Source of the DNA: Spirochaetes bacterium GWF1_51_8
GTDB lineage: Bacteria; Spirochaetota; Brevinematia; Brevinematales; GWF1-51-8
Direction: 5' to 3'
Assembly: GCA_001829415.1 (NCBI GenBank)
Contig: MIBE01000053.1
Coordinates: 28,812 to 92,811 of the forward strand
DNA length: 64,000 nt
Numbering within the stretch: position 1 is the stretch's first letter; each line of letters starts with the position of its first letter. Positions 5,682 to 8,940 of the stretch are shown in pieces. The notes beneath the pieces were generated by a model. The model was not told the DNA's origin and searched no databases. It worked only from the letters and a program-made list of their open reading frames with translations. The position numbers and the translations under genes are program-made.

Positions 5682-6407
5682 TTACTGCTTCACATACTGA
5701 CTGCCGCACAGCGCGGGAACATTTGTACCGCTAACAAGGAGAAAGTTACCTATCTTCAAGAAATACTGGACAGATCCCATATCGAAGGAATGCCAGTCAT
5801 CCGAAGAAGTATTTGTCCAATTCAGAACGGTACCCACGGGCGGCGCAGACGGATTCGCGTAATAAACGCCGACTCCGTTTGTCGAAGTGAAATTGGTCGC
5901 ATCCGAAATGGTAATATTTGAGGTTGTCGAAGTCAAGACCATGAAATTGGAATTGATAATATTTGTGCCGTTTTCAGTTCTGGAAGAATAGCCGAAGTTC
6001 TTATATACACCCGACCAGCCCGAACCGCTAACCAGCACAAAGATGTTTCCCGTACTGTAATAGAGGTTATTACCGTCAATAAAAGCGATGTTCTTTTCCG
6101 TGAAAACATTCGTGTAGCCGTCGCTTAAAAGGTTGTTCAGTATCAGAGTATCTGTGATAAAAACGTAGGCACCGGAGTTGGTGCTGACCGATACGCCCTT
6201 TAGGATCCGCGTATAATTATTGTCAGCGCCGAAAGCATAGGTGTTCGTATAACTGCTATAATAATAATTCACCCATGTTCCGATTATAGACGCCACAGAG
6301 GGGGTTCCCCCGCCCGGAGTAGTACTTGCAGCCGGAGCACATGCCATAACCATCACCCCCATCAATACCAACATCAAAAAACTTGTGAGAGAAAGCATTT
6401 TTCTCAT
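5682..6407 (-). CDS. Putative lipoprotein of unknown function
   Basis: A 241-residue exported protein. The N-terminus MRKMLSLTSFLMLVLMGVMVMAC is a lipoprotein signal; the lipobox is VMAC, weaker than canonical but usual for spirochaetes, which tolerate relaxed lipoboxes. A Thr/Pro/Gly linker follows, and the mature body is rich in Asn, Thr, Ser and Tyr, with segments such as IIGTWVNYYYSSYTNTYAF. GTW near the start followed by alternating beta strands resembles lipocalin-like or DUF5004-type lipoproteins, but I cannot assign a family. It stands alone between a consensus promoter and a strong terminator, so it is a monocistronic, probably well-expressed surface or periplasmic lipoprotein. Confidence 0.7.
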   Translation of the reverse strand: MRKMLSLTSFLMLVLMGVMVMACAPAASTTPGGGTPSVASIIGTWVNYYYSSYTNTYAFGADNNYTRILKGVSVSTNSGAYVFITDTLILNNLLSDGYTNVFTEKNIAFIDGNNLYYSTGNIFVLVSGSGWSGVYKNFGYSSRTENGTNIINSNFMVLTSTTSNITISDATNFTSTNGVGVYYANPSAPPVGTVLNWTNTSSDDWHSFDMGSVQYFLKIGNFLLVSGTNVPALCGSQYVKQ

Positions 6408-6453: not shown

Positions 6454-6482
6454 ATTATACTGAATCACCTTTTTTTTGTCAA
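6454..6482 (-). promoter_or_regulatory. Consensus sigma70 promoter of the lipoprotein gene
   Basis: On the minus strand TTGACA, 17 bases, TATAAT: a perfect consensus, 47 bases upstream of the start codon at 6407. AGGAGG follows as the ribosome site. Confidence 0.85.
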
Positions 6483-6819: not shown

Positions 6820-6848
6820 TTGACAGAAACGCACAGCGGGATTAAAAT
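6820..6848 (+). promoter_or_regulatory. Sigma70 promoter for the rsgA-like leader operon (copy 2 of repeated block)
   Basis: TTGACA at 6820-6825 and TAAAAT at 6843-6848, spacer 17. Transcription would begin near 6855, giving a leader of roughly 280 bases before the GTPase gene. The spacer sequence is shared with the promoter at 5445. Confidence 0.7.
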
Positions 6849-6878
6849 TAATCTCAAAATAAATTGAAGGAGCATTGG

Positions 6879-6926
6879 ATGAGTGTCCGAATAGTCCGAT
6901 TTTTTAACCGGAAGGTTATGTTCTAA
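6879..6926 (+). CDS. Putative 15-residue leader peptide
   Basis: ATG at 6879 preceded at good spacing by GAAGGAG (6866-6872), encoding MSVRIVRFFNRKVMF and a TAA stop at 6924-6926. It lies about 25 bases after the predicted transcription start and directly before a GGAGG that can be sequestered by a downstream TCCTCC. Short basic ORFs in this position upstream of ribosome-protection or rRNA-modification genes commonly act as translation sensors. There is no homology evidence; the call rests on position, ribosome site and the structured leader after it. Confidence 0.5.
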   Translation: MSVRIVRFFNRKVMF

Positions 6927-7138
6927 CGGAGGACACCGGCTCTTGAAGGCCTGATTTTATATTGTACACCCTTCTTTAGGCGGTTCCTCCGCGTGTGGTC
7001 GTTTCCGAAGGATTAATTAAGGAGATGACTACTTGTGATCATTTCCAATGATACAATAGAGATGACTACTTGTGGTCATTTCAATTGCTATTAAAAAGGA
7101 ATGACCACTGTTAGCGTATTTAATGGAGGAATCGAGTC
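6927..7138 (+). promoter_or_regulatory. Structured leader with repeated mini-ORFs and alternative hairpins
   Basis: CGGAGGA (6927-6933) can pair with TCCTCCG (6985-6991). Two 24-base near-identical repeats (7022-7045 and 7059-7082, one difference) each begin their ATG right after GAG and encode MTTCDHFQ and MTTCGHFNCY; each can fold on itself. GTGGTCATT (7072-7080) can instead pair perfectly with AATGACCAC (7100-7108), so the two structures exclude one another. A third partial copy (GTGTGGTCGTTTCC) lies near 6992-7006. The GTPase ribosome site GGAGG at 7125-7129 follows. This layout suggests translation-dependent attenuation. Confidence 0.5.
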
Positions 7139-7142
7139 ATGA
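7101..7142 (+). CDS. Mini-ORF overlapping the rsgA-like start
   Basis: ATG at 7101 directly after AAAAAGGA encodes 13 residues (MTTVSVFNGGIES), and its TGA overlaps the GTPase ATG as ATGA at 7139-7142. The GGAGG of the GTPase lies within this ORF. It starts MTT like the two upstream repeat ORFs. The ribosome site is too close to the ATG to be ideal, so translation is uncertain; if used, it would couple to the GTPase. Confidence 0.3.
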   Translation: MTTVSVFNGGIES

Positions 7143-8197
7143 CATTAGAACAGCTTGGATGGAATCCCTTTTTCTGGGATGCCTCCGGTAATTTTTTCAA
7201 TCAAAACCTTATTCCCGCGCGTGTGACCGAAGCGTATTACAACCGTTATAAAACAATCTCCGTTCACGGCGAAACGCTCGTGGCGTTGACAGGGAAACTG
7301 CGCGCCGAATGCGAAAGCGCGGGGAATTACCCCGTGACGGGCGATTGGCTGATGATCGAAGGCGCCGCCGCGCATGTGCTGCTGCCGAGACGGACGGTGC
7401 TCGCGCGAAAGTCCGTCGGCAAGCAGACCGCCGGGCAGACGATCTGCGCGAACATGGACAGGGTGCTTGTGGTGGGCGCTCTCGACGGCGAATGGAATCC
7501 CCGCCGGATCGAACGTTTCCTGACAGCGGGGTGGAATAGCGGCGCGACCCCGGCGGTCGTTCTCAATAAGCGCGACGCCTGCGGGGATTGGGAAGCCGCG
7601 CTCGCCGAGACCGAGGCGTCCGCGCCCGGGGTCGAGGTGCTTGCGGTGAGCGCGCGCGACGGCGGCGGGATGGACGAACTCGCCCGGCTGATCCCGCCGT
7701 GCGCGACCGCCGTGATGATCGGCTCGTCGGGAGTGGGGAAGTCGTCGTTACTCAACACCCTCGCGGGTACGGTTCTTCGCGATACGGGGGATGTCCATGC
7801 CGCGACCTCGCAGGGCAGGCATACCACATCGTCGCGCGGGCTGTTCTTCCTGCCGAACGGCGGGATGATGATCGACACGCCGGGGCTCCGCGAGCTAGGG
7901 CTATGGGCGGAAGAGGACGCCCTCTCCGGGGTGTTCTCTGACATCATCGAAATAGCGGCGGGATGCCGTTACCGCGACTGCATGCACGAGAACGAGCCGG
8001 ATTGCGCTGTCCGCGAGGCGCTCGCCAATGGAAGCATCACCCGGGGACATTACGAGAACTACCTCAAGCAGAGGCGGGAGATCGCGTATGTCGAACGGAT
8101 GGCTGATCCGAGGCTGGAACGCGAGAACCGCGAGAAATGGAAAAAAATCAACAAGTTCCAGAAAGAGATCGAGAAACACGGGAAAAGGAAAATATAA
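7139..8197 (+). CDS. rsgA: RsgA/YjeQ-family ribosome-associated GTPase
   Basis: Circularly permuted GTPase that works on the small ribosomal subunit during late assembly or stress. Visible in order: an N-terminal OB-like region (GDWLMIEG near residue 65), G4 NKRD near 142, G1 GSSGVGKSSLL near 196, a switch region with TSQGRHTT, G3 DTPG near 247, and the C-terminal zinc cluster C-x4-C-x-H-x5-C (CRYRDCMHENEPDC). Length is 352, slightly above the classic form. The start MTLEQLGWNPFF and lysine-rich tail match the second RsgA paralogue seen in many genomes, so a canonical copy may exist elsewhere. It is preceded by an unusual leader and shares TAATG with the next gene. Family assignment is firm; exact role is not. 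Confidence 0.9.
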   Translation: MTLEQLGWNPFFWDASGNFFNQNLIPARVTEAYYNRYKTISVHGETLVALTGKLRAECESAGNYPVTGDWLMIEGAAAHVLLPRRTVLARKSVGKQTAGQTICANMDRVLVVGALDGEWNPRRIERFLTAGWNSGATPAVVLNKRDACGDWEAALAETEASAPGVEVLAVSARDGGGMDELARLIPPCATAVMIGSSGVGKSSLLNTLAGTVLRDTGDVHAATSQGRHTTSSRGLFFLPNGGMMIDTPGLRELGLWAEEDALSGVFSDIIEIAAGCRYRDCMHENEPDCAVREALANGSITRGHYENYLKQRREIAYVERMADPRLERENREKWKKINKFQKEIEKHGKRKI

Positions 8198-8940
8198 TGG
8201 ATAGAAGAGAATTGTTTTTCGAGGTGCATACTGGCGAGACGCGTGAAGGGCCGGGAAGCCCTGAGTCGACACGGAAGGCTTTTTCGTATATTTCGGGGAT
8301 AGATAAGAATTCGAAGGTCATCGATATCGGATGCGGGCCGGGATGGCAAACACTTGAACTAGCCCGGCTTTGCGGGGGGGAGATTACCGCGATTGACCTG
8401 CATGAGCCGTTTTTGGACATCCTGAAAACGAGCGCCCTGAAAGCCGGGTACGGCAATAGGCTAACGGCGCGTAAGATGTCTATGACGGAGATCGATTTTC
8501 CCGATGGGGCTTTCGATCTTGTGTGGTCCGAGGGCGCGATATATTTTATCGGATTCACCCGCGGTTTGAAAGAATTCCGCCGGCTATTGAAAACCGGGGG
8601 TTATCTCGCAGTGTCGGAGGCGACATGGCTGAAACCAAATCCGCCTGATGAAGTGAAGGAGTTCTGGAATAGAGAATATCCGGCTATGGGGACGCTGGAA
8701 TCGAATCTGGCTTCGATAGACTATCACGAATACGAGATTGCGGGATACTTTGTCCTTCCGCCGTCGGATTGGGAGGAATATTTTTCCCCATTGAAGGCGA
8801 GGTTTGAGCAGATGCTTGCACGGCATCCCGGCGACCCGGACGCGGAGGAGTATTACCGTGAGGAGCTTCACGAGTTCGCGATGTACGATAAGTACCGGGA
8901 ATTTTATGGGTATGTGTTTTATATCCTGAAGGCTATATAA
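8197..8940 (+). CDS. Class I SAM-dependent methyltransferase
   Basis: A 247-residue cytoplasmic enzyme with Rossmann methyltransferase motifs: motif I VIDIGCGPGWQTLELA (residues about 42-57), the acidic end of strand 2 ITAIDLHEPF, and motif IV FDLVWSEGAIYFIG. The substrate cannot be read from the sequence; it resembles the UbiE/Methyltransf_11 group of small-molecule enzymes rather than rRNA enzymes. I set the start at the ATG in TAATG (8197), overlapping the GTPase stop by one base, rather than 8137, because AAAAGGA lies at suitable spacing and the upstream extension is in the GTPase gene. Co-transcription with the GTPase under one leader is the notable context. Confidence 0.85.
   Translation: MDRRELFFEVHTGETREGPGSPESTRKAFSYISGIDKNSKVIDIGCGPGWQTLELARLCGGEITAIDLHEPFLDILKTSALKAGYGNRLTARKMSMTEIDFPDGAFDLVWSEGAIYFIGFTRGLKEFRRLLKTGGYLAVSEATWLKPNPPDEVKEFWNREYPAMGTLESNLASIDYHEYEIAGYFVLPPSDWEEYFSPLKARFEQMLARHPGDPDAEEYYREELHEFAMYDKYREFYGYVFYILKAI

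Follow-up and report, generated by a model that had tools for sequence, protein, structure and literature searches.

A candidate ermC-type translation attenuator upstream of an rsgA GTPase gene and its coupled methyltransferase in a spirochaete

The window, a 64,000-nucleotide stretch of a contig from Spirochaetes bacterium GWF1_51_8, contains an rsgA gene and a coupled methyltransferase gene that are probably both controlled by an ermC-type translation attenuator. The leader contains a short uORF, a segment directly behind it that mimics the rsgA ribosome site (SD), and an anti-SD segment that can pair with that mimic or with the SD itself. This pairing potential and its conservation are read directly from the sequences, while we infer the direction of the switch from modeled folding with ribosomes at imposed positions. 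The initial annotation of the locus had already proposed a translation-sensing leader of the ermC type. The uORF, the segment behind it, the anti-SD and the SD hold up, as they are kept in four genomes and follow a logic that recurs in Bacillota; the additional small ORFs and the downstream pairing that it had built into the switch do not.

Organization of the locus

The features of the leader and the two genes are collected in Table 1. The consensus promoter and the 15-codon ORF with a good ribosome site described in the initial annotation are both present as claimed, and its identification of the downstream genes as an rsgA-like GTPase and a methyltransferase is also correct. The GTPase scores 153.9 bits with PF03193 (cut-off 30) and 167.8 with TIGR00157 (cut-off 100), which identifies it as RsgA. 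Conservation was evaluated over four genomes, namely that of the window (G000) and three others of the genus (G001, G002 and G003), genus and family being equivalent here. The order of rsgA followed by the methyltransferase gene is common to all four, and the three relatives have a TTGACA-17-TACAAT promoter at the corresponding position. A perfect TTGACA-17-TATAAT promoter is also found nearby on the minus strand (6454-6482), just upstream of a secreted-looking ORF of 241 aa (5682-6407).

Table 1. Features of the rsgA leader and downstream genes, in window coordinates
Feature	Position	Strand	Remarks
Sigma-70-type promoter, TTGACA-17-TAAAAT	6820-6848	+	matches consensus at 11/12 positions
uORF ribosome site, AGGAG	6868-6872	+	6 nt 5' of uORF; AGGAGCA invariant in four species
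uORF, 15 codons, peptide MSVRIVRFFNRKVMF and stop	6879-6926	+	equal length in four species
Segment 1, GTGTCC	6883-6888	+	partner is GGACAC within segment 2
Segment 2, CGGAGGACACCG	6927-6938	+	adjoins uORF stop; mimic of rsgA SD
Accessory hairpin, GAAGG...CCTTC	6945-6974	+	in 2-3 loop; GAAGG and CCCTTCTTTA retained in relatives
Segment 3 (anti-SD), CGGTTCCTCCG	6981-6991	+	partner is segment 2 (ON) or segment 4 (OFF)
Dispersed tandem palindromic repeat	6994-7108	+	in 3-4 loop; units 7022-7053 and 7059-7090 plus half units; outside switch
Segment 4, GGAGGAATCG	7125-7134	+	rsgA ribosome site; invariant in four species
RsgA-type GTPase gene	7139-8197	+	352 aa; Pfam RsgA_GTPase 4.9e-45; TIGR00157
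Class I SAM methyltransferase gene	8197-8940	+	start overlaps rsgA stop (TAATG); PDB relatives 3f4k, 3t7r

Mutually exclusive helices

GGAGGA (6928) and TCCTCC (6985) can pair across a spacing of 51 nt, as the initial annotation had observed. It overlooked the important alternative, which is that TCCTCC also pairs with the ribosome site of rsgA. Segment 3 therefore has two mutually exclusive partners, with 10-11 pairs each: segment 2 (helix 2:3) or the rsgA SD (helix 3:4). Either GGAGGACACCG is paired with CGGTTCCTCC, or CGGTTCCTCC is paired with the SD. In terms of the letters shared by all species, CGGTTYCTCCG joins the CGGRGGACACCG segment in the first helix and GGAGGAATCG in the second.

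The strength of these pairings was compared, species by species, with 2000 dinucleotide shuffles of the upstream sequence. Helix 3:4 is equalled by 1, 11, 9 and 0 shuffles in the window, G002, G001 and G003, respectively, and helix 2:3 by 10, 37, 22 and 28. Helix 1:2 forms all six of its pairs and is invariant in the four species, so no covariation is seen there; it is weak relative to the shuffles, being equalled by 35, 283, 277 and 93 of 2000 (same order). Helices 2:3 and 3:4 show only one-sided changes within the genus, where segments 1-4 barely vary among the four closely related leaders. As a whole, the region folds better than 100 of 100 shuffles (z = -3.7), with part of this due to the self-palindromic repeat.

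Folding was calculated at equilibrium only, with the position of the ribosome imposed as a constraint. Blocking the bases that a ribosome would cover at the uORF stop yields helix 3:4 in all four species (9.3-10 pairs). With the ribosome at codon 6 or 8, helix 2:3 forms instead, again in all four (7.1-10.7 pairs). With the stall placed at codon 10, G001 and G002 revert to 3:4; only an early stall would therefore serve. Without any ribosome, the window's leader folds as 2:3 (ON) and that of G003 mostly so, whereas those of G001 and G002 fold as 3:4 (OFF); these differences among species make the basal behavior uncertain.

Conservation within the genus

The RsgA proteins of the four genomes are 59-64% identical. 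All four leaders have in common the promoter, AGGAGCA, the 15-codon uORF, CGGRGGACACCG, the GAAGG...CCCTTCTTTA element, CGGTTYCTCCG and TGGAGGAATCG, and CGGRGGACACCG sits just 3' of the uORF stop in each. The uORF peptides of the relatives (MSVRIIRVSTRGVGF, MSVRIIRVLTRVVGF and MSVRIIRVAARGAVI) share the start MSVRI(I/V)R with that of the window. Four of the five nucleotide changes in codons 1-7 of the four-species alignment are synonymous, a sign of selection acting on the peptide. The conserved start in turn suggests that stalling may depend on the nascent peptide. MSVRI(I/V)R contains neither IFVI nor the arginine-X-arginine stalling motif, though it does have R-X-X-R.

Searched with a covariance model built on the leader's 5' part, each genome yields a single strong match, always before rsgA (E-values of 1e-17 to 5e-22). 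The model places the leader before no other gene in the four genomes, the next best E-value being 0.24. The rsgA genes of more distant members of the order (families f2 and f3) have no such leader and directly follow another gene; on this distribution the leader seems not to be an ancestral feature of the order. Comparison of the window's leader with Rfam gave no match at gathering or loose thresholds.

A dispersed repeat in the 3-4 loop

Three ATGAC ORFs reading MTT, two of them within near-identical repeats that can fold alone, had been assigned a central role in the initial annotation. The ORFs do exist, at 7025 (MTTCDHFQ), 7062 (MTTCGHFNCY) and 7101 (MTTVSVFNGGIES, which overlaps the rsgA start), and the palindromes are real and stable, with 88% identity between the two repeats over 32 nt. 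Neither the ORFs nor the proposed pairing of GTGGTCATT (7072) with AATGACCAC (7100) can be retained as working parts. The repeat unit ATGACTACTTGTGGTCATTTC occurs on other contigs of the same genome, next to unrelated genes. Its core, CTTGTGGTCATTTC, has 13 matches in that genome with at most one mismatch, versus 0 for the reversed pattern; the corresponding counts in the relatives are 4 versus 1 (G001), 1 versus 1 (G002) and 0 versus 1 (G003). No ATGAC-type repeat lies between segment 3 and the gene in these three species. G001 has a diverged copy between the promoter and the uORF, which shows the repeat inserting at different places of the same leader.

The MTT ORFs are palindromes read as codons, and they lack a normally spaced ribosome site because the purine run abuts the ATG. 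The ATGAC units are a REP/MITE-like dispersed palindromic repeat that is found in unrelated intergenic places, has landed in the 3-4 loop and is not part of the switch. On contig C10 of the same genome (L004:1500-1690), about five nearly identical 40-nt palindromic units are arranged in a tandem array that is broken by a short run of N. A second dispersed repeat (GAAGCAATCTATTT...AGACTGCTTC) is present in the 2-3 loop of the G001 and G002 leaders and beside another gene of the window's genome (L023:1310-1400, L024:1350-1400 and L008:1540-1700).

Related leaders in Bacillota

In the phylogenetic tree, RsgA of the genus groups with the second RsgA of Bacillota (about 350 aa) and is separated from their housekeeping RsgA as well as from the spirochaete RsgA sequences included; the support of 99/99 applies to the clade and not to positions inside it. 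Each of the four genus genomes has one RsgA match, always in this '2' clade, and no housekeeping-type RsgA was found in any of them. The assembly of the window's genome is 93.5% complete and may have missed a second rsgA.

A strict SD-bearing uORF is present within 200 nt of 17 of the 18 Bacillaceae rsgA2 genes, compared with 3 of 30 control genes, although many of the 18 are closely related and therefore represent fewer independent cases. The Bacillaceae uORFs are unrelated in sequence (for example, MGKLINLVQKKVNIRGQKME), yet the uORF-end segment, anti-SD and SD still give two exclusive helices. In Bacillota, the bases that flank the SD covary with their partners: GGAGGACAA/TTGTCC, GGAGGATAC/GTATCC, GGAGGAAAA/TTTTCC and GGAGGAATC/GATTCC. 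Covariation across rsgA leaders, which the initial annotation had named as a check, is thus seen as compensatory SD flanks in Bacillota but not as two-sided changes in the switch helices of the genus.

Elsewhere the design seems to differ. In a wider set of Bacillales (L132-L155), scanned without a matched control, Gln-Pro is encoded in the uORF of about 18 of the 24 leaders. Many of these combine CAGCCC in the uORF with GGGCTGT downstream and an intrinsic terminator, and they look like a candidate family of ribosome-mediated transcription attenuators. Many Clostridia rsgA2 leaders (L042 and L103-L127) have a uORF of 10-13 codons and one or more terminators, an observation that is also from a scan without a matched control and should be taken as a lead. 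Examples of these uORFs are MKTFSIEVIVK, MIENTLKVIVI, MNVNIRVIVI and MTQSVTFEDIVI, and of the terminators, GCACGGTAGGTTATCGTG-T(n). The strict uORF count is uninformative for Clostridia and part of the Bacillales: with a greater distance from the gene or a weaker ribosome site, their uORFs escape it, and they came to light in the wider scan. Among the rsgA leaders tested against Rfam, a selection other than L132-L155, the only matches are to Clostridiales-2 sRNA; they fall in L042, and one lies 5' of the rsgA there. We also note similar segments on plasmids of Lysinibacillus and Stenotrophomonas (L066 and L069), hosts of two phyla, in which genes for a FosB-type fosfomycin resistance protein and a HAD hydrolase come immediately after the RsgA gene.

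Proposed mechanism and alternatives

In the mechanism we favor, a constitutive-looking promoter would drive transcription of a leader with a well-placed uORF. During normal growth, ribosomes would translate the uORF to its end and thereby occlude segment 2, leaving segment 3 to mask the SD and keep rsgA expression low. A ribosome stalled within the first 6-8 codons, by a drug or other translation stress, would leave segment 2 free to capture segment 3. With segment 3 held in this way, the SD would open and both RsgA and the methyltransferase would be produced. The repeat in the 3-4 loop would fold into self-contained hairpins, and the switch would stay in working order.

The same parts could serve another purpose. 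The leader might sense initiation capacity, that is, the supply of working 30S subunits, instead of stalled elongation: when few ribosomes load on the uORF, segment 2 would be unmasked, 2:3 would form and the 30S-maturation GTPase would be made, closing a homeostatic loop. This homeostatic role in maturing the 30S subunit deserves serious consideration as an alternative because the RsgA of the genus is the only RsgA match in its genome, and a 30S assembly GTPase is a fitting product for such a loop. Also in keeping with it are the separate ribosome site of the uORF and the mostly 2:3 fold of the ribosome-free leader in the window and G003. The 3:4 fold of the ribosome-free leaders of G001 and G002 argues the other way, as does the preservation of the uORF peptide through synonymous changes, for which pure initiation sensing has no need. 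We consider this reading improbable, though well ahead of the remaining ones. One of these supposes that ribosomes slow down at rare arginine codons of the uORF, CGA at positions 4 and 7, which would make the leader an arginine or charged-tRNA sensor like the amino-acid attenuators. CGA is indeed the rarest arginine codon among the genes of the window (1.8 per 1000), but neither target gene encodes an enzyme of amino-acid metabolism. G003 has CGG and AGA at these positions, such that the residue is kept and the codon is not, and we reject rare-codon sensing as highly improbable.

Two further possibilities carry even less weight. The version in the initial annotation, with ATGAC-repeat hairpins set by translation of the MTT ORFs controlling the gene, has the stability of the palindromes in its favor; the dispersal of the repeat through the genome, its absence from the 3-4 loop of three relatives in which the leader is otherwise retained and the poor spacing of ribosome sites for the MTT ORFs leave it hardly credible. 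It is just as implausible that the leader is simply a long untranslated region full of repeats with no regulatory function. These leaders do harbor at least two repeat families, but conservation is restricted to the switch segments and the uORF, and the shuffle tests and the parallel designs in Bacillota likewise speak for function. An ermC-type attenuator that responds to stalled elongation is thus the explanation we prefer.

Comparison with known systems

The ermC leader consists of a uORF, an SD-mimic segment behind it and an anti-SD with two possible partners, and the target SD is masked while the uORF is freely translated. The leader described here has the same anatomy, and probably the same masking logic, as that of this macrolide-inducible 23S rRNA methyltransferase gene. 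It differs in its leader peptide, which lacks IFVI, in its target, a 30S-subunit GTPase together with a methyltransferase, and in the repeat within the 3-4 loop. Such leaders are known to mark genes that respond to ribosome-targeting drugs. Their recurrence, in unrelated sequence forms, before one RsgA clade suggests that the clade is switched on by translation stress.

The hflXr gene of Listeria monocytogenes encodes a ribosome-splitting GTPase and is preceded by the rli80 leader, in which uORF-dependent attenuation is induced by lincomycin and erythromycin (PMC6310831). Both leaders place a short uORF (14 aa in hflXr) and alternative RNA folds before a ribosome-associated GTPase. Whereas hflXr is controlled through transcription termination and has an RLR motif, the rsgA leader would act on translation initiation and has MSVRI(I/V)R; moreover, HflX acts on 50S/70S and RsgA on 30S. 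The vmlR and ARE-ABCF leaders (PMC9226507) are similar in exerting attenuation-type control over a ribosome-protection factor; they differ in that the factor is an ATPase, not a GTPase, and in mixing transcription and translation attenuation. In Streptomyces coelicolor, an RsgA paralogue (SCO6149/SCO5211 pair) is listed among the genes activated by WblC/WhiB7 under translation-inhibitor stress (PMC7157823). Control in that case is by a transcription factor, and no rsgA leader is described.

The initial annotation knew of no described example, and we agree to the extent that no account of an rsgA leader or rsgA attenuation was found in the open-licence literature, where subscription work may be missed. 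Ribosome-stall control is known from antibiotic-resistance genes and, as far as we could find, is apparently new for rsgA. From the leaders, together with the hflXr and WblC cases, we infer by analogy and not by proof that RsgA of this clade may answer translation stress. Tentatively, and with rather less confidence than we have in the attenuator itself, the clade might represent a stress-inducible 30S protection or rescue factor, held in reserve behind ribosome-sensing leaders that have arisen repeatedly (of the SD-masking type in this genus and in Bacillaceae, and with a uORF plus terminator in Clostridia and the other Bacillales). The leaders make it testable whether RsgA paralogues are uncharacterized small-subunit protection or rescue factors. 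If so, RsgA of this clade would stand beside HflXr and the antibiotic-resistance ABC-F proteins as a counterpart acting on 30S.
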